Positions 5,524-21,103 of a stretch of DNA of 35,664 nt are shown piece by piece (position 1 is the first letter of the stretch; each line of letters begins with the position of its first letter). A model generated the notes under the pieces. It did no database searches. It was not told where the DNA came from and worked only from the letters and a program-made list of their open reading frames with translations. The position numbers and the translations under genes were made by a program. The DNA comes from a virus. The DNA lies in IMG/VR virus record IMGVR_UViG_3300049596_000342, positions 1 to 35,664 of that record; one strand, 5' to 3'.

Positions 5524-5595
5524 TTATTTTTTATATTGTGCCATACGTGTCCACCATATGATGACCGCAATGGCTATGTTTAGTAAGTCAATCAT
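5524..5595 (-). CDS. 23-aa single-span membrane micro-ORF
   Basis: This short frame starts with an ATG (5593-5595) that overlaps the TGA of the methyltransferase gene (ATGA coupling). It ends in TAA 3 nt before the next start, so it exactly fills the gap. The product starts MIDLLNIAIAVIIWW, then RMAQYKK: one hydrophobic segment of about 13 residues and a basic C-terminus, which predicts a tiny membrane peptide. The exact fit and coupling support translation. No function can be assigned. Confidence 0.5.
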   Translation of the reverse strand: MIDLLNIAIAVIIWWTRMAQYKK

Positions 5596-6119
5596 TTTTT
5601 TATTCCGTAAAAATACAAATCTTGTGGGAAGTCTATACGTGTTTTAAATTTATAATTAGAAAATATCTCATCACAATTTAACACACTTCTAATATCTGCC
5701 TCACTTAAGTTGCGATAGTAGTCATTAGTAAACGGTGAATCCTTTGGCGATGTGCGCTTTGTGCCATGCTCGGGTCTTCCTGGCGCCGCACAACTAAATA
5801 AAAACAAACCGCCATCTTTTAGTAAGTTGTTAATCACATTTTTTAACGTTTGTTGCCAATGCTCATCATGCTCAAAGCACTCAGTTGAAATCACAACATC
5901 GAATAAATCATCAGACTTAAACAAGTGACCACTACAAACTACATCAACATTCTTGCCCTCGCCGATATCGATACCAGTGTAGTTGCATTGCTCAAATAGG
6001 TAACGGTTGTTGCCATTAATGTCAAGTGAGCCGATGTCTAACACGCTTGTTCCGACAAAAAATTCATCGTGCGCGTATTTTACAAGCTCACACCATTCTC
6101 TTTGTTCTCTGTGTGCCAT
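5592..6119 (-). CDS. SAM-dependent methyltransferase, type 11-like
   Basis: This 175-aa protein has a class I Rossmann methyltransferase pattern. Motif I is VLDIGSLDINGNN (about residues 24-36). An acidic residue follows strand 2 (YTGIDIGEG), then FDVVISTECFEH (motif IV region) and LLKDGGLFLFSCAAPG (post-motif). The substrate is unknown. It is shorter than many family members but appears intact. The start ATG overlaps the stop of the glycosyltransferase-like gene by one base (TAATG), so the two are probably co-translated and may modify the same target, such as a virion or host surface glycan. That pairing is inference. Confidence 0.78.
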   Translation of the reverse strand: MAHREQREWCELVKYAHDEFFVGTSVLDIGSLDINGNNRYLFEQCNYTGIDIGEGKNVDVVCSGHLFKSDDLFDVVISTECFEHDEHWQQTLKNVINNLLKDGGLFLFSCAAPGRPEHGTKRTSPKDSPFTNDYYRNLSEADIRSVLNCDEIFSNYKFKTRIDFPQDLYFYGIKK

Positions 6120-6727
6120 TACTTTTTATATTTAGTTAAGAAAGTTTGATTGTCATTCAACTGAATCATTCCAAATTCAGGCAGTTGTGTAGTTGTGCTA
6201 ATCTCGGATTGAATACTTAAGCCATGCAACTCGTAAGGTGTTGAATTTTGTGCTAACCAGTCATCCCCATTTGCAATCAATAAGTCTTCGGGTATAGCAA
6301 CATACTTAGATTTATGCATCAACATCATACATCCCCATCCGTATGGGCGTTGCTTCATTGATTTCAAATGTATGTTAGCATCCTTTTTTAATTGATAGTT
6401 TTCAAATGCCATACCGATAACACCAACGTGCTGCAATGAATCATCGAATATCGATAAGAATGCAGGATTAAAGTTAATGTCATCGTTGCATATTAAGATG
6501 TTATCATACTTAGCGCGCTCAACTCCGTAATTCCACGCGGGATTTACGTAAATATTTTCAGCCATTAAGTGTATGTCATACTTAGCGTTAAGCGGCAACG
6601 GTCTATATTCGGTTGTGTCGTTGTCAATTATGATTACCTCGCCAACGGATTCGCAGTTGCATAGGTCTTCAACAAGCTTAATAATGCGTGGACTTCTCCA
6701 CATAGTTGGAATGATTACGCTAAACAT
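6119..6727 (-). CDS. GT-A fold glycosyltransferase-like protein
   Basis: This 202-aa protein begins with the nucleotide-sugar binding strand typical of family 2-like transferases (FSVIIPTMWRSPRIIKLVEDL). VGEVIIIDND (about residues 28-37) follows, then NILICNDDINF (about 76-86), whose DD is placed like the DxD metal/sugar-nucleotide motif. PYGWGCMMLMHKS lies further on, and NGDDWLA (about 148-154) could supply the catalytic acid. The donor and acceptor are unknown. It starts inside the 3' end of the large terminase (8-nt overlap) and is followed by a methyltransferase. It may decorate virion proteins, which is inference. Confidence 0.7.
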   Translation of the reverse strand: MFSVIIPTMWRSPRIIKLVEDLCNCESVGEVIIIDNDTTEYRPLPLNAKYDIHLMAENIYVNPAWNYGVERAKYDNILICNDDINFNPAFLSIFDDSLQHVGVIGMAFENYQLKKDANIHLKSMKQRPYGWGCMMLMHKSKYVAIPEDLLIANGDDWLAQNSTPYELHGLSIQSEISTTTQLPEFGMIQLNDNQTFLTKYKK

Positions 6728-8030
6728 TTGACAAATATATGAAATTTTTTAGATAAGTGTTACATGCATAACGAAATGTGTCTAATGCATCCGCTTGCTG
6801 AGTCGGATCGTTTCGGTCTGTTTTCTTTATTGTCCCATCGGGCAACACCGCAACGTTTTCCAAATCAAATTGTAAGCCCTTAGTAAACTGTGGGTCAAGT
6901 TCTACATTGCCACGCGCAAGAAGTGAGTTAACTAACATTCGGTTGTCTTCTAACGATGGGTTAACGCTTGGCACTAACATTTGATTGTTGCTAAGGTTAA
7001 ACTTCTGGCGAATAACAACATAATAGTTGAGGTTATCCTGCACTAATGCACTCGATGACTTGCCACTTGCATCGCCAGTTACTTGGTAAAGTGCATTGCC
7101 ATACTTAGACTTAATCACATCACAAAGTTGATAGATGTCGCTATTGGCTAACTTAATCGTTTCTTTAACGCGTATCGTTGATGGCGGCATTACTTGCAAC
7201 ACTGAACAACATATAGGATTTCGGTTAAAGTCAAAGCTAAGTATGATGGGCAGTTGTTTGTTAAGTTCAACGGGCTTAAGGTGTTTAGTCGAATCGTAAG
7301 CGTATGCCCATCGGTTGCCATCCATATCGAAGTTGGTCCAATCGCCACCGATAAACTGCCGCTTATAACGCTCATCCATACGTGACCATACCTTGCGTTG
7401 CTCCTCGGTTACGAAAGCATTGTCATCGGGCAAGGCTAACTGATAGTAAAACTCTGGCCCTAACTCGCCTTTTAAGTAAGGAATATGAATCTCATCCTTA
7501 ATCCACGTTTGCGTTGGGTTAAATGTTGCAAGTATCAAAGGTGTGGGCATCTTATCAATGTACCAGGAGCCAACGCGTGAGCTGCCGATATTCCATAACT
7601 TCTTACTCAACTCTTCAATCTGCTCAAAGTATATTCCGTTTGTTTCAAGTCCTAAGAAAGCATTTAACTCGGGGTCATGGCTAATATTTTCAGCCATAAA
7701 GAATATCTTTGATTTGGTCTTAGTATTTTCTAAGAAGTAGTTTGACTTATCGCGTGACCACCTAAAGTGTGTTGAGCCATCGATAATCTTTTCAAATGTC
7801 GGTATAATTGTCTTTACTAACTTAGGAAAGTCGGAACGTATAACGTGCCACTTACTGCCTGGATACATCGATGCCAAACGTAAACAGATCGTGGCACAAA
7901 TAAAAGACTTGCCACCACGAATTGCGCCGCCATAAAGCAAGTTGCGCTTCTCTGTCGCGCCTTGAGCAGCCGCCATCGCTTGTATGTAAAAGTCATATTG
8001 CTTTGGGTTGGCTTGTAAATCGACATTCAT
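6720..8030 (-). CDS. terL: Terminase large subunit (packaging ATPase and nuclease)
   Basis: This 436-aa protein cleaves concatemers and drives DNA into the prohead through the portal. The Walker A is GGAIRGGKS (residues 34-42), the Walker B is GIYFEQIEE (132-140) with E140 as the likely catalytic base, and the coupling motif is ATFNPT (168-173). The RNase H-like nuclease domain shows LSFDFNRNP (D267), VTGDASGKS (D320) and QQADALDTFRYA (D414/D417). The length is normal for a phage TerL. The start ATG at 8030 abuts the end of the small terminase gene. The downstream genes are unusual because the portal does not follow; it lies about 9 kb further along the transcript. Confidence 0.95.
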   Translation of the reverse strand: MNVDLQANPKQYDFYIQAMAAAQGATEKRNLLYGGAIRGGKSFICATICLRLASMYPGSKWHVIRSDFPKLVKTIIPTFEKIIDGSTHFRWSRDKSNYFLENTKTKSKIFFMAENISHDPELNAFLGLETNGIYFEQIEELSKKLWNIGSSRVGSWYIDKMPTPLILATFNPTQTWIKDEIHIPYLKGELGPEFYYQLALPDDNAFVTEEQRKVWSRMDERYKRQFIGGDWTNFDMDGNRWAYAYDSTKHLKPVELNKQLPIILSFDFNRNPICCSVLQVMPPSTIRVKETIKLANSDIYQLCDVIKSKYGNALYQVTGDASGKSSSALVQDNLNYYVVIRQKFNLSNNQMLVPSVNPSLEDNRMLVNSLLARGNVELDPQFTKGLQFDLENVAVLPDGTIKKTDRNDPTQQADALDTFRYACNTYLKNFIYLSNV

Positions 8031-8386
8031 TAAATTTCAATCTTAGTTCCATCAGGCATCGTAACCGTTGATGGTGGTCGCGTGTCGGTGATGGTCGTTT
8101 CGGTTTTAGTTATTTGCTCCTCTATTCCGTTATTCAATGTGTCAATGGCCTTAGCATTGCCCATCTTTGCGTTGTTAAATAAACTATCGACATACTCCTC
8201 AAGGTTGTTTGAGCCCGTTAACTTTTCGATAATCTTTTGAGTTAGTAACCTTTCCGCGCGCCTTGCCTCCCATCCTTTGCTCTTTGCTTCGGGTGTCGGT
8301 TGGTTATCTTTAGTAAATGATACGCCAGTCTCGAGTCCGTTCATTCTTACTCGAGGTTTTTTCGGTGTTTTGTCATCGGCTTTCAT
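8030..8386 (-). CDS. terS: Terminase small subunit, putative
   Basis: This 118-aa basic protein has a charged, disordered N-terminus with SFTKDNQPTPEAKSKGWEARRAERLLTQ split over residues 23-50, then helices (IIEKLTGSNNLEEYVDSLFNNA) and a beta-like C-terminal tail. The position directly before terL, the size and the composition match small terminases that recognise the packaging site, but the DNA-binding motif is not classical. A TATCTTTG promoter box ends 4 nt before the ATG, so its transcript may be leaderless. This would give the packaging and tail genes their own promoter. Confidence 0.7.
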   Translation of the reverse strand: MKADDKTPKKPRVRMNGLETGVSFTKDNQPTPEAKSKGWEARRAERLLTQKIIEKLTGSNNLEEYVDSLFNNAKMGNAKAIDTLNNGIEEQITKTETTITDTRPPSTVTMPDGTKIEI

Positions 8387-8390
8387 AGCA

Positions 8391-8423
8391 CAAAGATAAG
8401 TATTATTTTAATAAGTTAATCAA
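8391..8423 (-). promoter_or_regulatory. Bacteroidota-type promoter for terS (leaderless arrangement)
   Basis: On the minus strand TATCTTTG (8398-8391) matches the TAnnTTTG -7 element. A TTG (8423-8421) lies 22 nt upstream as a weak -33 element. Four bases (TGCT) separate the box from the ATG of terS, so transcription is expected to start at or next to the A of the start codon. Confidence 0.6.
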
Positions 8424-8933
8424 TTCAGTTTGCATCTGCTCAAACGATGTAGCTACTATGTAATTACCTCCATCGGCTTCAATTGCTGCTTTGCGTTTAA
8501 GTTGTGCTTCTCCCATTCGGTCACTGGGGCTTTTAATTTCGATGGCAAATAGTTTTCCTTTAAGAATACATTGAATATCCTCCATTCCTTTGTTAAGACC
8601 TGCAATGTAACCTATCCCTTTTCGATATCTGCCCTCACTACTTATTCGCCTTGCACTATTGCAACTGTGTACTGCTTTAAGATATGCAATAATCAAATCG
8701 GTAAACTTATTGGTGTTAAAAGCATCTTTGGTTTCTTTTGGCTGGACAACATTGTTCACTGGTAAATCCAAATGGTTTGTCGTGAGCTCCGCTTTTCGCT
8801 TCTTAACAACTTTCTTTTTGTTAAGGTTAAATCGTTCAATCGGTAATGTTTGCCAAAACGCTTGATTCATGTTAGATCGTTTAAATTGGTTGTGATAATA
8901 AAGTTCGAATTCGGGGATTGTGTAAATTTTCAT
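8403..8933 (-). CDS. VRR-NUC domain nuclease
   Basis: The C-terminal half of this 176-aa protein carries the VRR-NUC pattern: GIGYIAGLNKGMEDIQCIL, then LFAIEIKSPSDR and EAQLKRKAAIEADGGNYIV (about residues 128-163). Here D and E/K form the PD-(D/E)XK metal site and the Q...G-Y/V segment is diagnostic. The N-terminal 75 residues are basic and low in pattern, possibly DNA-binding. Phage VRR-NUC proteins are thought to be structure-specific or Holliday-junction-type nucleases, which would help resolve DNA before packaging. It sits between the putative origin and terS. Its end lies upstream of the terS promoter. Confidence 0.82.
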   Translation of the reverse strand: MKIYTIPEFELYYHNQFKRSNMNQAFWQTLPIERFNLNKKKVVKKRKAELTTNHLDLPVNNVVQPKETKDAFNTNKFTDLIIAYLKAVHSCNSARRISSEGRYRKGIGYIAGLNKGMEDIQCILKGKLFAIEIKSPSDRMGEAQLKRKAAIEADGGNYIVATSFEQMQTELINLLK

Positions 8934-9204
8934 ATTATTTATAATTTATAGAAAACTCAATTTTTTTCTAAGTCTTTTCTAATAACTTTTCTAAGTCTTT
9001 TCTAAGCTATAACCCTTACTACTACTATATTTTATATATATATAGAAAAAAGAAAGAGGTAAATGGCTAAAACTATTCCTATTATTATTTTTGATAATAT
9101 TTTTTGTAGTAATTTGCCAAATGCCTTTTCTATTTCTATTTTTTTCTAAATAATTAGTAATCAATAGTTTAATATAGAAAAGACTTTTAGAAAATACTTT
9201 ACTA
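8934..9204. other. AT-rich intergenic region with iteron-like repeats, candidate replication origin
   Basis: This 271-bp gap lies between the helicase and the VRR-NUC gene and is strongly AT-rich, with polypurine/polypyrimidine tracts and a TATATATATA stretch near 9034-9043. A 19-bp repeat occurs twice in direct orientation (8964-8982, 8987-9005), and an inverted variant lies at 9175-9194. Further TTTTCTA cores occur near 9126-9132 and 9142-9148. An origin next to the replicative helicase would fit. A frame on the minus strand can be read through it, but its composition is not protein-like. Confidence 0.45.
8964..9005. repeat. Tandem 19-bp iterons
   Basis: TTTTCTAAGTCTTTTCTAA occurs at 8964-8982 and again at 8987-9005 (23-bp period, spacer TAAC). 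A reverse-complement copy with a 2-nt insertion lies at 9175-9194, so the three copies bracket the AT-rich region. Confidence 0.75.
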
Positions 9205-10767
9205 TTAAAATGGTTGTTTATTTTCATAATCGCTATAAGATTCATATTCAACTGATTGGTTATTTTCCCTCACAAATAGAAATGGAGTGCCTTTCTTTTT
9301 TTCAAGGTAATTATTGCTATTAAATGGAAAATAATACTTATTCGGTTGCGGTGTCATTTTCATTTCATTTTTAAGGACTTTAAGAATGTAAGACATCTTT
9401 TCTCTTTCTTTATCAAACCACCTTTCTTTAATATCTTTTGCAGTTGCTTCAAACTCATTACAATCATTATTATCAAAAAAGTATTCAATGTATATTTCAA
9501 GTTCTTTTCTTAATCCGTTTTTACTTTCTTTTTTGATAAGTTCCAGCGATTCTGTTTGTATTTCCTCCTGCGTGAATACCATACGCGAATTTGAAAAGTC
9601 AATTTCAGGCAGTTGTTCTAAATATTTAAGGAATTTAGGAATCTCGTTAAACAAATCGTTTTCTATGTTGGTGTTCTTTTTGCCAACGATTGGGTTTATT
9701 TTCCTAATCCAAAATCGAATTTCTTCGTCATCTATTCGCATAAAATCGGTTTCCTTATTTGTGCAAACTATAATTTTACCAAAGAATGGCACACTATAAT
9801 GTTGCACAAATTTTTGTGATACTGAAATAGTTTTTGCAGTTGCTAACGATTTAAGTTTTTCAACAACGTGTTGCTTTTCAATTACCGTTTCATCTATCAT
9901 AATTATATTCTTTGTGGCATAGGCATCATTAAAACTACTCATTAAGTCACTTGGATTAATAAGTGTTGAATTTTCGCCAAATAGCATCTGAATATAATTC
10001 AAGAAAGTAGTTTTTCCTGTTTCCCTTTCAGTTGAAACTAAAGAAAGCACTGGTAATATTTGACAAGGATGCTCATAAAGTAACTTCATGTACTTCAAAC
10101 CTAACTCTAATTGCTCGCCAAAGATGTGACTTAATAAACCAAGTGTTACACTAATGTCATCGGTGTAAACCGTATCACTAAATTTAGTATGTGGAAATTT
10201 GGCATATAAATTATAACAATTGTTTTTAGATGGAATAAAAGTCACATTATTAGGAATAATTGTGAAGTCATCAAACTTATAAATTTTGCAAAGTATATTT
10301 TTCGTATGATCCTCTTTTATTTCATCTTTTTTCCATGACTTTAAAATAACATTAGTTCCTGAATAGCGGTCATCTTTTTTAATTACTTTAAAATAATCAG
10401 AGCCAACGCGAATATAAGGTATTTCGTTTTGCATTATATTATAAGAAACGTGACTCATAGCTTGAAAGTAATCGCCTTTAAATTTAACCGTTGTCAACAA
10501 TATAAATTTACTAAAGCTTTGTCCAGTTGCTAAATCAAATGGGTTTGACTTTTTAATGTCAATCTTTCCGTTTTTATTTAAAATAAAATTAGGGCTTTTA
10601 GACAAATCACTTGCATCACTTACGGGGTAAGTTGCTTCAGTATCTGAAAACGAAATACATTTTTTATCGCCCTCAAATATTTGCTGCATCGTTCCAAATT
10701 CGTTAAACCAATCTATTGGATTGTAGATTGAATTCTTTTCGGGTTTTTTAAATTTGTTCATTTTCAT
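9205..10767 (-). CDS. Replicative helicase, SF3/DUF5906-like (primase-helicase C-terminal type)
   Basis: This protein of about 520 aa unwinds DNA at the phage origin. The ATPase core shows a Walker A-like loop STERETGKTTF (about residues 246-256) and Walker B NIIMIDE (288-294). KSLATAKTISVSQKF and the sensor-type KIIVCTNKE (about 331-339) follow, then an arginine-rich RFWIRKI. The N-terminal 200 residues lack a recognisable primase catalytic triad, and the primase is a separate gene two frames upstream. The ATG at 10767 is preferred over a TTG one codon earlier. The start overlaps the 62-aa gene by 20 nt. The iteron region follows its stop. Confidence 0.82.
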   Translation of the reverse strand: MKMNKFKKPEKNSIYNPIDWFNEFGTMQQIFEGDKKCISFSDTEATYPVSDASDLSKSPNFILNKNGKIDIKKSNPFDLATGQSFSKFILLTTVKFKGDYFQAMSHVSYNIMQNEIPYIRVGSDYFKVIKKDDRYSGTNVILKSWKKDEIKEDHTKNILCKIYKFDDFTIIPNNVTFIPSKNNCYNLYAKFPHTKFSDTVYTDDISVTLGLLSHIFGEQLELGLKYMKLLYEHPCQILPVLSLVSTERETGKTTFLNYIQMLFGENSTLINPSDLMSSFNDAYATKNIIMIDETVIEKQHVVEKLKSLATAKTISVSQKFVQHYSVPFFGKIIVCTNKETDFMRIDDEEIRFWIRKINPIVGKKNTNIENDLFNEIPKFLKYLEQLPEIDFSNSRMVFTQEEIQTESLELIKKESKNGLRKELEIYIEYFFDNNDCNEFEATAKDIKERWFDKEREKMSYILKVLKNEMKMTPQPNKYYFPFNSNNYLEKKKGTPFLFVRENNQSVEYESYSDYENKQPF

Positions 10768-10936
10768 CAATTTGTTTTATCATTTCTTGAGCAAATTCTC
10801 TTGCAGCAAAACATATAATTTCTATGTCAAGTTCTTCAAAATCTTTATAACTTTCTTCCATTTTTGCAATAAAACTTTGCATTGCTAAACCTGCAAAGTA
10901 ATCAAATCTTTCTTGTTTTGTTTTTTTGTTTTTCAT
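10748..10936 (-). CDS. Small conserved phage-type protein of unknown function
   Basis: This 62-aa protein is acidic and helical (MKNKKTKQERFDYFAGLAMQ at the start, FAAREFAQEMIKQIDENEQ near the end). The FAGLAMQ and A-FA-EM pattern resembles a common group of small phage proteins with no known role. It begins just downstream of a terminator-like three-way junction element, so its expression from upstream may depend on read-through. It overlaps the helicase start by 20 nt. Confidence 0.65.
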   Translation of the reverse strand: MKNKKTKQERFDYFAGLAMQSFIAKMEESYKDFEELDIEIICFAAREFAQEMIKQIDENEQI

Positions 10937-11074: not shown

Positions 11075-11106
11075 CAAATGTACTTTATAATTATTTATTT
11101 TGCAAA
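11075..11106 (-). promoter_or_regulatory. Bacteroidota-type promoter (TTTG-N20-TACATTTG)
   Basis: On the minus strand TTTG (11106-11103) lies 20 nt before TACATTTG (11082-11075), matching the -33/-7 pair. The -33 half overlaps the end of the primase gene. TACATTTGCA recurs at two other minus-strand promoter candidates. Confidence 0.6.
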
Positions 11107-11972
11107 TAAGTAGGAAAATTTAAACCCTTATCCACCATTTCTTTGGCAGTTTTTTTATAAACATCTGGCTTTTTAGATAAATAGCTTTGCGAATCAATTA
11201 AGTTATTGATAAGTGAAATGGCATCATTATAATCAATATAATTCGCGCCAACATACCCACCGAGCAAATAACTGGTAGCACGTAAAATAATATGTCCAGT
11301 ATCGGTTATGGTATTAATACGTTTAGCAATTATCTTTTCAATAACCGATGTTTTGTCATCAATTATGTATTGTTTAGTCGCAGGCCTTACAATTTCAATG
11401 TGTTTTGTTGACCAAGTTTGTGCATCGTTTCTGTGTAGAATGTCGGCATCGTAACTGATAAACATTGGTAGTATGCAGTTCTTTGGTGCTGTATCAAACC
11501 CATTATAACAGTTGAGGTGTCGCTCAATGCCTGCATAATAGTGTTTAAATTCATCAACCGAAGTGCAAATAGGTATCTTAACCAGTGCGCGAACACCATG
11601 CCTTGAAGCCGATAGCCACGCAGTTATAATGTATTTATATTCGTTAAATAAATATTGTTTAAATTCAACTGCCACATCGCTTTCCAAATGGTCAAAATCC
11701 AAAACAAGCAATCCAGTCCAATGTTGAATATTAGAATACTTACGCGGCCCATCAACATAAACACATGGAGTAAACGAGTATAATTTTGACTTCAATGCTT
11801 GCTTTTTGGCCATGTCTTTATTTTCTTCAGCAATACGTATCTCCTCAAATACATTGCGGATATCTTTTTTTGGCGTTCTAATCGCATTAATTAGATATTC
11901 AAGCGTAACACTACCTAATGGAGTGCTACGTTTGATATCGGCTTCGTAATAGTTGAATGTTATTGGTTGCAT
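11091..11972 (-). CDS. Primase, BT4734/VirE N-terminal type (AEP superfamily)
   Basis: This 293-aa protein carries the BT4734-like domain of Bacteroidota mobile elements. It has a lead segment on limiting computation of the element (FTPCVYVDGPRKYSNI), then the catalytic acidic pair in GLLVLDFDHL (about residues 87-96). WLSASRHGVRALVKIPI (about 118-134) supplies the conserved Ser/His/Gly-R region. The C-terminal 80 residues (GHIILRATSYLLGGYVGANY, then DVYKKTAKEMVDKGL) resemble a PriCT-type helical domain. It should synthesise primers for the separate SF3-type helicase encoded downstream. The start overlaps the nuclease gene by 13 nt. Confidence 0.78.
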   Translation of the reverse strand: MQPITFNYYEADIKRSTPLGSVTLEYLINAIRTPKKDIRNVFEEIRIAEENKDMAKKQALKSKLYSFTPCVYVDGPRKYSNIQHWTGLLVLDFDHLESDVAVEFKQYLFNEYKYIITAWLSASRHGVRALVKIPICTSVDEFKHYYAGIERHLNCYNGFDTAPKNCILPMFISYDADILHRNDAQTWSTKHIEIVRPATKQYIIDDKTSVIEKIIAKRINTITDTGHIILRATSYLLGGYVGANYIDYNDAISLINNLIDSQSYLSKKPDVYKKTAKEMVDKGLNFPTYLQNK

Positions 11973-12517
11973 AGTTTATCCATCATAAACTCATAATTGG
12001 CTATGTGAACATTTGTGTAATCAATACCGTTTGGATGTATCTTATGCTCAAATACTGGTTTATTGTTAATACTAAACTGATAGCCTAATGGTTTCTTTCG
12101 CACTTCACCAATGTTGAACACACCAAGAAAACCGTTAAAAGAATGGTGATCATGTAGCTCCTCATGTCTATCGATGTGCAATTCTACTCCATCAATAATT
12201 GTTGATTGCTCATTTAAAATAAAATAGCTATAAGATAAAGGTGGGCAAATTAAAACAATAGCTTTAACAAATTCGCCTGGTTTATATTCCCATTCTGCGG
12301 TTGTGTATCTTTCGGCTTGTTTAATGTACTTGCCTATTTCCTCGCCTCTTTTTTTGTCGGGTATTTTACATTCAATTGCAAAGTGATATTTGCCATCAAT
12401 AGTTAAAAGCAAATCAATTCTATTTTTCTTGCACTTGCTTACTACTTCTCTTTGAACTTCAAAATACTTTTTAAATTTTAATTCAAGTTTGTTTACAAAT
12501 TCTTTTTCTGTTTTCAT
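11960..12517 (-). CDS. PD-(D/E)XK superfamily nuclease
   Basis: The N-terminal half of this 185-aa protein carries the restriction-endonuclease-like core: KKNRIDLLLTIDGKYHFAIE with D35 and E49, followed by C-K51 (AIECKIPDKK), then KRGEEIGKYIKQAERY (helix with a conserved Q). This is the D-Xn-ExK metal site. The C-terminal part is not recognised. Its place between the annealing-protein cluster and primase suggests a role in recombination or DNA end processing, perhaps as exonuclease partner of the RecT-like protein. That pairing is inference. It starts 1 nt after the stop of a 49-codon ORF. Confidence 0.72.
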   Translation of the reverse strand: MKTEKEFVNKLELKFKKYFEVQREVVSKCKKNRIDLLLTIDGKYHFAIECKIPDKKRGEEIGKYIKQAERYTTAEWEYKPGEFVKAIVLICPPLSYSYFILNEQSTIIDGVELHIDRHEELHDHHSFNGFLGVFNIGEVRKKPLGYQFSINNKPVFEHKIHPNGIDYTNVHIANYEFMMDKLCNQ

Positions 12518-12518
12518 G

Positions 12519-12668
12519 TTATTTTTTTTTAGGGTTTAGTTTATTGTACTCGGTTTGATTGTAATTAAAGCCATCGACAACCATTGCTTTTTGGATAGCG
12601 TGATAAATTGTTTCGGCCCATGTTGGAAGGATTTTCCCGCTTGGGGATTTTACTAAAAATATTTTCAT
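12519..12668 (-). CDS. 49-aa small ORF in front of the nuclease gene
   Basis: The ATG at 12666-12668 follows an attenuator-like element, and the frame runs to a TAA at 12519-12521, just before the nuclease ATG. The product begins MKIFLVKSPSGKILPTWAET and contains IYHAIQKAMVVDGFNY, then ends in a basic PKKK. The mix of a hydrophobic core and helical pattern looks protein-like, and it fits the gap exactly. The function is unknown. It could be a leader peptide for the attenuator or a small DNA-binding partner. Confidence 0.55.
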   Translation of the reverse strand: MKIFLVKSPSGKILPTWAETIYHAIQKAMVVDGFNYNQTEYNKLNPKKK

Positions 12669-12681
12669 ACTTATAAGAATT

Positions 12682-12768
12682 AAAAAAGCCCGCTAAACTT
12701 TGCATAGGATTCCACTTCTATACTCGGTTAAACGGGCCAATATTATTATGTTTCTATAATGTGGAATC
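12682..12768 (-). promoter_or_regulatory. Attenuator-like leader with alternative pairings and terminator
   Basis: Read on the minus strand, four segments follow in the order a-b-a'-b'. They are GATTCCAC (12768-12761), GGCCCGTTTAACC (12738-12726), GTGGAATC (12715-12708) and GTTTAGCGGGC (12698-12688), then TTTTTT (12687-12682). Segment a is perfectly complementary to a', and b pairs with b' (two mismatches) to form an intrinsic terminator. Because they interleave, the two helices either exclude each other, as in a riboswitch or attenuator, or form a pseudoknot. The element precedes the 49-aa ORF and the nuclease-primase genes. Confidence 0.5.
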
Positions 12769-12796
12769 GAAACAACTTGGTAAATATAAGTAATAA

Positions 12797-13291
12797 TTAC
12801 TTAATCTGCAAATTACGATGTGTTGCTATACTGCAACCAGCAACATCAACACCATCCTTTAATGCTGCTTTAATAGCTGCCTTATCTGCTTGTTCAGTAA
12901 CTTTGACCACCTTGTATGCAGCAGGCAGTTGGTTTACATCATCAACCTCAACTGTTTCAGATTTGCGAAAGTTAATCTTTACCAATGGTGTCTTTATTTC
13001 TTCAATGCTAAATAAATCCATTGCGTGTTTAATGCGGTCTTTAAGGTATTCAGATGCCTTTTCACGTTGCTTCTTTAAGTTCTGCAACCTCTTTATTTCA
13101 GCCTCAATGATGTCAACATCAGCATCCATTTGTTTTATTACAAATGAATAGGCAACAGATTTGTTTTGCAACTGTTCTTCAGTAATTGCAAGTGCTTCCT
13201 CAAGAGAGGGGGTTAACTCACCCCCATTCTCTATAAGTTCTTCTGCTAATTGATTATAGCTTTGTTCGATTTGAAAGATTGTAGTTTTCAT
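12797..13291 (-). CDS. Siphovirus Gp157-like protein
   Basis: This 164-aa protein matches the Gp157 family pattern. An N-terminal helix (IFQIEQSYNQLAEELIENGG) leads to a long coiled coil with DADVDIIEAEIKRLQNLKKQ (about 73-92) and SEYLKDRIKHAMDLF. A C-terminal beta region (KINFRKSETVEVDDVNQLP, then AYKVVKVTEQADKAAIKAAL) ends with GVDVAGCSI. In Streptococcus phages the family is linked to phage resistance in plasmid trials, but its biochemical role is unknown. It commonly sits with single-strand annealing proteins and SSBs, as here. The start ATG overlaps the stop of the RecT-like gene. Confidence 0.85.
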   Translation of the reverse strand: MKTTIFQIEQSYNQLAEELIENGGELTPSLEEALAITEEQLQNKSVAYSFVIKQMDADVDIIEAEIKRLQNLKKQREKASEYLKDRIKHAMDLFSIEEIKTPLVKINFRKSETVEVDDVNQLPAAYKVVKVTEQADKAAIKAALKDGVDVAGCSIATHRNLQIK

Positions 13292-13986
13292 TATGCTTCA
13301 GTTTTAGATGTTAATGAAATAGTTGTTAATTTAGCTTTCATATCATCCTTTGCAGCCAACACTCTTAAGTCAAGTTTAATGTCTTTAGGAACTGCTTTCC
13401 AAATAGCTTGTAATTCATTTAAACTAACACACACTTGAATATCATTGATAATCTCATCAATTGTTGTGTCAACTTCAATGTGGGTAGCATCTTCAGTAGT
13501 TACCACTTGCATTTCCTCTGGCACATACACTGGTCCACTAAAGATGTCCGGACAATACCACTTCACACCATTACTAATAGCCCTTGCGAATAACATATTC
13601 TTTGGAAATTTGTCAATATTCTTGGTTAGTGCTTTTTTCGCATCTTCAATGGTAAATGTGCTATTACCTATCTTTGTGTTACCTTGATAAAAGTCAATGC
13701 TGCAAACCTTTTCTGATGCCTCAACAACACGATAGTCATACTTGCCACTCCCTTTAAGTCTTGATGCAATAAGACCTGCTCCGATTGTCGGCTTTCCTTG
13801 AATAATGTGGATACCAGTCATAGCAGCGAAAGGAGGAATTCCAATTTCTTGCCCTGCTTGTATTTTTACTATTGCTTGGGCTGCTGATTTTGTGTCTGAA
13901 AACATTCCACTTTCTGCGAATGCTTTGGCCAAGTTCATAAGTTCTGAAATTGGCAATTGTTGTACGATTGAAACTTGTGTGTTCAT
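13291..13986 (-). CDS. RecT-like single-strand annealing protein, putative
   Basis: This 231-aa protein contains a pattern seen in phage annealing proteins of the RecT group: SAAQAIVKIQAGQEIGIPPF (about 34-53), then MTGIHIIQGKPTIGAGLIAS (about 56-75). TIEDAKKA and KFPKNMLFARAISNGVKWYC (about 128-147) follow, then PVYVPEEM. It probably anneals complementary single strands during replication and recombination. Gp157-like, OB-fold and nuclease neighbours support that. The C-terminal 60 residues are acidic and variable. Many relatives are annotated only as hypothetical, so the family call is moderate. The ATG at 13986 has an A-rich leader. Confidence 0.65.
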   Translation of the reverse strand: MNTQVSIVQQLPISELMNLAKAFAESGMFSDTKSAAQAIVKIQAGQEIGIPPFAAMTGIHIIQGKPTIGAGLIASRLKGSGKYDYRVVEASEKVCSIDFYQGNTKIGNSTFTIEDAKKALTKNIDKFPKNMLFARAISNGVKWYCPDIFSGPVYVPEEMQVVTTEDATHIEVDTTIDEIINDIQVCVSLNELQAIWKAVPKDIKLDLRVLAAKDDMKAKLTTISLTSKTEA

Positions 13987-19936: not shown

Positions 19937-21103
19937 ATGCCACAAGTTACATCAGAATTTTATAAATATGATTCGATTGTAGCTGAAATGCTCCATCAGG
20001 GTTTGGCTTGCTCCGAAATAGTTGCAAAAATATTAAACACCAATGCAACCAGAGAGCAAGACCCGAAAGTAAGGTCATTTAGGCGCTATATTGAACGGCA
20101 TAAAAAGAGAATACTTGACCAACACGAGGGTATTTATAATGCCACCAACAATTTAGATGTGCCGAATACCTCCACAAAAAATATGTGGATAAAAAACAAG
20201 GAAGCATCTTTGTTTGTTGTTAATCCAAATTATAAAAAGCCAGAAGCAAAAGAACAAGAACATTTTAAAGAAGCACTATTAAAAGACTTACAAGCTTATG
20301 TGCCAAAGTTCCCACAAATAGAAAGAGTAAAAAGCAATGATTCTTATTTGCTTGTTTTGGATCCTGCCGATATTCACATTGGTAAATTATGCACATCGTT
20401 TGAATCAGGTGAAACATACGATAACCAAGTGGCAGTTAAAAGAGTTTTAGAGGGTGTAAAAGGAATACTGCAAAAAGTAAGCTCGTTTGATATAGATAAG
20501 ATATTGTTTATTGGTGGAAACGATATATTGCACATTGACAATCCAAAAAGAACAACTACCAGTGGAACACCCCAAGACACAGATGGAATGTGGCACACAA
20601 ACTTTTTAATTGCCAAACAGTTGTACGTTGATGTTTTAGAAATATTAATAGGTGTTGCCGATGTTCACTTTACTTTTAATCCAAGTAACCACGACTACAC
20701 AAACGGTTTCTTTTTGGCCCAAGTTGTAGAAACATATTTTAAAGATTGTAAGAATATAACTTTTGATTGTACCATAGCACATAGAAAAGGTTATAAGTAT
20801 CATAATAATTTGATTGGCACAACGCATGGAGATGGGGCAAAGCAAGGAGATTTACCGCTATTGATGGCGCAAGAATTTAGTCAAGAATGGGGCGAAACAA
20901 AGCACAGATATATTTATACGCATCACGTACATCACAAAACAAGCAAGGATTTTATAGGAGTAACGGTTGAAAGTTTAAGAAGTCCAAGTGGAACAGATAG
21001 TTGGCATCATAGAAATGGTTATCAGCACGCACCTAAAGCGGTTGAGGGTTTTTTACATTGTAAAGAAAATGGTCAAATAGCAAGAATAACACATATTTTT
21101 TAA
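19937..21103 (+). CDS. Calcineurin-like metallophosphoesterase
   Basis: A 388-aa protein with the metallophosphoesterase motif set: LDPADIHIG (D145, H147), GGND (193-196), PSNHD (249-253), THGDG (H297) and THHVHH (328-333). These bind two metals and cut phosphoester bonds. The first 65 residues are helical and might bind DNA (SEIVAKIL near 26-33). Relatives in phages are thought to act on nucleic acids or nucleotides, but the substrate is not known. All motif residues are intact. It is unrelated to the lysis genes and may take part in DNA processing or host takeover. Confidence 0.85.
   Translation: MPQVTSEFYKYDSIVAEMLHQGLACSEIVAKILNTNATREQDPKVRSFRRYIERHKKRILDQHEGIYNATNNLDVPNTSTKNMWIKNKEASLFVVNPNYKKPEAKEQEHFKEALLKDLQAYVPKFPQIERVKSNDSYLLVLDPADIHIGKLCTSFESGETYDNQVAVKRVLEGVKGILQKVSSFDIDKILFIGGNDILHIDNPKRTTTSGTPQDTDGMWHTNFLIAKQLYVDVLEILIGVADVHFTFNPSNHDYTNGFFLAQVVETYFKDCKNITFDCTIAHRKGYKYHNNLIGTTHGDGAKQGDLPLLMAQEFSQEWGETKHRYIYTHHVHHKTSKDFIGVTVESLRSPSGTDSWHHRNGYQHAPKAVEGFLHCKENGQIARITHIF

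Follow-up and report, generated by a model that had tools for sequence, protein, structure and literature searches.

A proposed replication origin with TAGAAAA iterons downstream of a phage DUF5906 helicase gene, and the apparent joint exchange of iteron word and helicase tail among its relatives

Introduction

Does an AT-rich, repeat-bearing gap between two genes of a phage serve as its replication origin, and if so, which protein would read the repeats? The DNA studied here is the whole of IMG/VR virus record IMGVR_UViG_3300049596_000342, a stretch of 35,664 nucleotides referred to below as the window. The original prediction, made from its letters alone, placed a candidate origin with iterons at 8934-9204, beside a replicative helicase gene. 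Our comparison with phage and chromosomal relatives, and with systems already studied, supports an origin with initiator-read repeats. The gap is very probably the replication origin of this phage, with the helicase as initiator and its C-terminal domain, a predicted winged helix, as the part that would bind the TAGAAAA words.

Results and discussion

Organization of the gap

The gap separates two minus-strand genes, a helicase (9205-10770) and an endonuclease-like gene (8403-8933), and has a GC content of 0.19, in agreement with its description as AT-rich. Its status as the largest gene-free gap depends on gene calling: the interval 12518-12796 is 8 bp longer but carries a 49-aa ORF at 12519-12668. 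Two tandem 19-bp repeats had been reported, and both exact copies are present (8964-8982 and 8987-9005, their starts 23 bp apart); the repeated unit, however, is the heptamer TAGAAAA, and the pair is resolved into four copies of it spaced at 11/12/11 bp. The inverted third copy was recovered as an 85% match over 20 nt at 9175-9194. Features of the gap are as follows.

8934-9204, minus strand: proposed replication origin, a 271-bp AT-rich gap with ten TAGAAAA iterons (repeat counts, shuffles, gap alignment)
8949-8955, plus strand: inverted copy between the four-copy array and the nuclease start codon (present too in the other TAGAAAA-type gaps displayed)
8964-9004, minus strand: four direct TAGAAAA copies at 11/12/11 bp (8964-8970, 8975-8981, 8987-8993, 8998-9004; arrays with other words at 10-12 bp in relatives)
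9026-9044, no strand: AT-only run, candidate unwinding element (same place AT-rich in 17 aligned gaps, by eye)
9043-9049, plus strand: inverted copy at the edge of the AT-only run (word count)
9126-9148, minus strand: two further direct copies on the helicase side (9126-9132, 9142-9148; word count)
9175-9194, plus strand: two inverted copies beside the helicase stop codon (9175-9181, 9188-9194; inverted copies with other words also at this end in relatives)

Of the ten copies in the gap, six read on the minus strand and four on the plus; all the rest of the window holds another ten. The first copy in the gap lies 10 nt past the helicase stop codon. When the gap was shuffled 200 times with dinucleotides preserved, its top 7-mer count averaged 2.8 and reached a maximum of 4, against 10 in the original. 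Among 1180 sliding windows of 270 bp, one over the gap reaches 10, and those without overlap stay at 4 or below. In both tests A/T-only words and words with fewer than three different letters were unscored. The GC skew, proposed as a check on the origin, proved uninformative, as it broadly tracks gene orientation and has no turning point at 9 kb.

Between the end of the four-copy array and the nuclease start codon are 30 bp. An array so placed would also suit an operator or promoter region, in which the words are bound by a regulator (a part that the helicase may play) of the nuclease-terminase genes beginning at 8933, with the origin located elsewhere; iteron binders often autoregulate. Sigma-70-like matches, the promoter type within the scope of the search, occur in the gap at shuffle level (5 versus a mean of 4.5), and the spread of words in both orientations across ~ 245 bp, together with the AT tract, would exceed the needs of a simple operator. 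Gene order in chromosomal relatives, presented below, adds to these points.

The single strand of the gap also folds better than its shuffles (z -3.3, 1 of 200 as good; calculated for the window's gap with its repeats present). This raises the possibility of a structure-dependent origin in which the inverted copies form a large hairpin and the words are stem arms only, comparable to the stem-loop origin of pRN1, likewise located just downstream of a helicase gene (PMC4234260). How the words change among relatives bears on this alternative.

The helicase and neighbouring genes

The helicase assignment of the neighbouring gene, part of the original prediction, holds by family and by fold. The product scores 65.5 bits with Pfam DUF5906 (PF19263; curated cut-off 27.6), a family that represents the AAA+ helicase part of D5-type helicases and NrS-1 (PMC9611036), while the PHROG profiles it matches carry the label DNA primase. 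DUF5906 was the sole family found in a Pfam scan of all 521 residues at E up to 0.001, and no Toprim primase domain was seen in that scan. The relevant genes and domains are listed below.

9205-10770, minus strand: DUF5906 / D5-type helicase, proposed self-loading initiator (Pfam, PHROG, model, fold search)
9205-9570, minus strand: helicase C-terminal domain, residues 401-521, proposed iteron reader (secondary structure of residues ~ 419-500 fits a winged helix; word correlation, trees, exchanged block)
11091-11972, minus strand: BT4734-like primase gene upstream of the helicase, proposed partner (profile matches)
8403-8933, minus strand: endonuclease / Holliday-junction-resolvase-like gene, its start codon forming the edge of the exchanged block (profile matches, DNA comparison)

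An AlphaFold2 model of the helicase, built on 26 sequences (mean pLDDT 79), has its best fold match in the C-terminal region of the NrS-1 PrimPol (6k9c; Z 23.7, rmsd 4.1, 349 aligned), followed by the SaPI5 primase-helicase (7ola; Z 17.3, rmsd 5.9, 366 aligned). Next come the African swine fever virus PrimPol and poxvirus D5/E5 (D5 8apl: Z 14.3, 288 residues). Foldseek returned the same leading entry. Residues 419-500 of the model follow the order helix, strand, helix, helix, strands, that of a winged helix, and we predict this fold for the C-terminal domain with moderate confidence; folded alone and without an alignment, the domain gave a poor model (pLDDT 53).

Sequence searches reached less far. 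A single-sequence phmmer search of the PDB with the helicase gave two chains of unrelated names at E 0.5 and nothing significant. In INPHARED, with records very near the window possibly excluded, there was no blastn match for 8200-10900 and no tblastn match for the helicase, so this collection offered no annotated relative to use. A search with the C-terminal domain alone, with a reach of close relatives, found 11 loci, all on contigs with the whole helicase, and no separate protein that borrows the domain.

BT4734-like proteins, to which the product of the upstream gene belongs by its profile matches, are a family of archaeo-eukaryotic primases (PMC5862659). Adjoining the primase gene, 11960-12517 encodes a PD-(D/E)XK-type nuclease-like protein. 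On the other side of the gap lies the large terminase gene (6720-8030), beside which methyltransferase and glycosyltransferase genes occupy 5592-6727.

Repeats behind the helicase in phage relatives

According to the original prediction, lack of the repeats in relatives would speak against an origin; repeats were found in phage and in chromosomal relatives. Two scans of IMG/VR gave at least 154 loci, one scan contributing the best 80 of 88. Some of these are stretches of a single contig that overlap each other, and the record of the window itself brings the number to 155. Among these 155 loci listed, both genes are on the expected strand in 92, and they yield 43 distinct gap strings, one of them empty (three loci). 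Three strings were set aside: the empty one, an 83-bp gap, and a 639-bp gap that contains an extra ORF. This left 40 gaps, or 41 with that of the window. In several types (e.g. L011, L013-L015, L029, L070) the nuclease match is partial or distant, and the far gap end was projected. The 639-bp gap, between the helicase stop codon and nuclease of L065, seems by eye to hold an RGTAAT-type origin and then the extra ORF, the start of which resembles a P-loop ATPase.

The top 7-mer count was reached by none of 200 shuffles in 34 of the 41 distinct gaps (window included), and by one or two of 200 in the other seven. Viewed by helicase type, a repeated word behind the stop codon is present in 52 of 53 types (window included), a count made without shuffles. 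L077 is the sole type in which no repeated word was found behind the helicase; by eye, a coding sequence seems to start there at once.

Layout is common to the 17 gaps that were aligned. Beginning at the helicase side, inverted copies near the helicase stop codon are followed by direct copies, a middle part, the AT-rich tract, a partly kept GTAGTAAGG-like stretch, and, last before the following gene, an array of direct copies, usually four. The iteron word itself changes among relatives in all copies together, and appears as TAGAAAA, RGTAAT, TGTAAT, TGTAAA, TGTAAATG, GGTAAA, GTAACAA or GTAAAC. Copies in the array follow each other at 10 to 12 bp, most often 11, for TAGAAAA, RGTAAT, TGTAAA, TGTAAT, GTAAATG, GGTAAA and GTAAAC, as determined on 16 types with a pattern fitted to each (L054 with three copies). 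Iteron columns coincide in ten aligned pairs, but the alignment itself uses the words, and for the window and L045 two of 270 shifts are equally good.

When each gap was divided into a helicase-side and a nuclease-side half, the same word was best in both halves in 34 of 41 gaps, with seven ties (L011, L013, L014, L015, L026, L070, L072) and no conflicts. Five to seven of the ties arise because the far gap end was projected, not seen. Pairing in a hairpin would also predict a joint change of inverted copies, but direct copies on the same strand change together too, at intervals of 10-12 bp, beyond what pairing requires. A pRN1-like stem-loop is for this reason highly improbable, and we retain the reading of the words as iterons bound by the helicase.

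In the window, the GTAGTAAGG-like stretch is located at 9006-9025, between the AT tract and the four-copy array, and at the same place in relatives it is partly kept while the word changes. It may be a second recognition element.

Repeats behind distant chromosomal helicases

From a scan of bacterial genomes, 80 of 120 relatives were kept, nearly all of them Bacteroidota by name, and their helicases share 32-47% identity in the region of the match. Of the 76 loci with enough sequence, 63 show a 7-mer count beyond all 50 shuffles in the 300 bp that follow the helicase stop codon, compared with 1 of 75 for the 300 bp before the gene and 0 of 70 for a stretch ~ 1 kb further on. In the other 13 of the 76 loci (L159, L168, L180, L212, L213, L214, L220, L224, L225, L227, L228, L230, L232), the 300 bp after the stop codon gave no repeat excess. 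Chromosomal words include TGATGCA, TCATCAA, TGATGAA, GCATCAA, GTTGACA, TACAACA, GTAAAAA and others, and they occur in both orientations in the 14 loci listed.

In the two loci examined for gene order, L175 and L162, an HTH_17 gene is followed by the DUF5906 helicase, the repeats and a CHC2/Toprim primase gene. Both (among L156-L235) look like integrated mobile elements. Like repeats thus precede a primase gene here instead of a nuclease gene, and since the downstream genes differ, the constant partner of the repeats is the upstream helicase. Together with the promoter counts and the extent of the repeats, this makes an operator of the nuclease-terminase genes improbable.

Based on the nearest chromosomal relatives and on the BT4734-like primase, we infer that the phage represented by the window infects Bacteroidota.

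Iteron word and helicase C-terminal domain

A third explanation of the gap would be a packaging site (pac/cos), given the terminase genes nearby: the large terminase gene is ~ 900 bp away, and 8030-8386, a small-terminase candidate by position alone and without a family match in profile searches, is ~ 550 bp away. DNA on the two sides of the gap was compared with the window by BLAST (nuclease, helicase and gap of 24 of the 155 loci). Contigs of the RGTAAT type that share the nuclease (L020, L025, L028, L041, L042, L086) match the window at ~ 85-92% DNA identity once past the nuclease start codon. Their helicase, where it has an alignment of its own, is at ~ 71-72%, and BLAST aligned almost none of the gap. 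As judged from these alignments, the nuclease and terminase genes do not follow the iteron word. A packaging site is scarcely credible when the word changes while nuclease and terminase DNA stays ~ 85-92% identical (the first five of these contigs), when it tracks the helicase C-terminal domain, and when chromosomal loci have such repeats behind the helicase.

The word tracks this domain in several analyses. Mantel correlation with gap 6-mer distance was 0.85 for the C-terminal domain, 0.65 for residues 1-120, 0.65 for 120-240 and 0.46 for 240-400, and a partial Mantel test of the C-terminal domain against gap 6-mer distance gave 0.70, reached in 0 of 999 permutations (n = 50 of 53 helicase types; L077, L074 and L051 left out). 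Among 176 pairs with residues 120-400 at least 95% identical, 133 have a similar tail and the same word, 41 have another tail and another word, and two are exceptions; in one of these, L059/L069, the word labels tie. The 41 pairs are not independent: the 39 listed all pair one of three TGTAAA helicases with an RGTAAT one.

The boundaries of the change can be followed in L084 (RGTAAT) compared with L120 and L133 (TGTAAA). Their helicases are 93-100% identical to residue 400, and 39-67% after it. In 90-bp steps of DNA, identity is 83-100% upstream, save one outermost step (53% in L120), and 51-74% from ~ 640 bp before the nuclease start codon, corresponding to helicase codon ~ 400, up to the start codon. 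Nuclease DNA of L084 is again 82-92% identical to that of L120; with L133 the identity is 84-91% in the first 350 bp and then 66 and 58% within the gene. L115, used as a control with the same word as L084, is 87-100% identical to it across the exchanged block.

Trees were built for a well-sampled clade of 17 helicases with four outside it, a group picked once the tree had been seen. On residues 1-400, the three TGTAAA helicases (L120, L123, L133) do not form one clade (AU p 0.0008) and three word changes are needed, against one in the C-terminal tree. Parsimony over all 51 rows gives 13 word changes on the core tree and 13 on the C-terminal tree, and does not separate them. Taken together, the three versus one changes and the block in L084, L120 and L133 indicate that more than one helicase most likely acquired its tail and origin together.

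Co-transfer and correlation both support the proposal of iteron binding by the C-terminal domain. Physical linkage would explain part of the joint transfer, as the codons of this domain lie right beside the gap. Tails may also diverge without a change of word, since L011 and L014 share the TGTAAATG word with C-terminal domains 48-58% identical.

Elsewhere in the window, 12797-13291, 13291-13986 and 19937-21103 encode a Gam-like end-protection protein, a RecT-like annealing protein and an exonuclease, a recombination set that could help module exchange.

Proposed mechanism and comparison with known systems

We propose that the helicase encoded beside the gap acts as the initiator, with its predicted C-terminal winged helix binding TAGAAAA. 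The four-copy array lies on the nuclease side of the AT-rich tract and the opposed copies on the other side; with copies about one helical turn apart, the array would present them on one face of the DNA. Helicase rings could in this way be placed and loaded on both sides of the AT tract, which would melt, after which the separate BT4734-like primase would prime; its use and the direction of replication are likewise part of the proposal.

The closest parallels are staphylococcal. SaPI Rep helicases recognise, through a C-terminal domain, iterons directly downstream of the helicase gene, and residues 400-538 of SCCmec Cch2 bind direct repeats downstream of its gene, with a 5-nt word, AAGTG, of which three were found (PMC7581432). 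SaPIbov1 Rep belongs to another helicase family than SaPI5 Rep and Cch2 (PMC7581432). Here as there, short repeats are located directly 3' of a D5-type helicase gene, and the proposed reader (residues 401-521) is at about the same place as in Cch2. In contrast to the staphylococcal islands, the present case is a phage, with another word, more copies, a primase on a separate BT4734-like gene and a helicase whose single-sequence search gave no significant match to solved chains. Most likely the gap is a genuine origin of the kind used by SaPI5 Rep and Cch2, carried by a phage that would infect Bacteroidota.

NrS-1 PrimPol and poxvirus D5 share the predicted fold but carry the primase in the same protein, not in a separate gene. 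The same difference in primase holds for pRN1 ORF904, which resembles the window in the place of its origin and in a C-terminal winged helix (here predicted) and differs from it in having a stem-loop, not iterons. In the phage P4 alpha protein, a C-terminal winged-helix domain reads short origin repeats, but a Toprim-type primase, not seen in the window helicase, is part of the same protein (in part PMC4234260).

Exchange of a reader with its origin has a precedent in the PLE satellites of Vibrio cholerae, where the DNA-binding domain of the initiator RepA and the origin are exchanged together and are mutually specific by experiment, and where selection for the exchange is attributed to Odn, a phage nuclease that mimics the initiator (PMC8263062); PMC7145576, also on the PLE origin, adds nothing to this. 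Alike is the swapping of DNA-binding domain and origin as one module, deduced here from sequence comparison. RepA differs in being a RepA_N initiator with an N-terminal domain and three iterons of ~ 30 bp, as opposed to a helicase C-terminal domain and heptamers. One narrow search, with the C-terminal domain, found no Odn-like, origin-directed nuclease here.

Conclusions

The anatomy of gap and helicase is, by analogy, already known from SaPI Rep/Cch2. Among the titles and abstract openings listed, with subscription journals thinly covered, no description of such an origin in Bacteroidota phages was found. The particular value of the case lies in a natural series of word-and-tail swaps, in which helicases near-identical to residue 400 have different tails and different origin words. 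With it, the recognition code of D5-type initiator helicases becomes directly testable, and an origin is predicted, directly behind the helicase gene, in many phages and integrated elements of Bacteroidota with a DUF5906 domain, which Pfam still labels as a family of unknown function.

Tentatively, the DUF5906 helicases of Bacteroidota phages and integrated elements might constitute a broad class of self-loading initiators, each with a swappable cassette made up of the winged-helix tail and ~ 250 bp of origin downstream of it, exchanged as a unit between phages. The word would then be under diversifying selection, perhaps by escape from origin cross-talk of co-infecting phages or from an Odn-like origin-targeting defence. 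If the diversity of words is indeed selected, it points to competition or defence among phages at the level of the origin.
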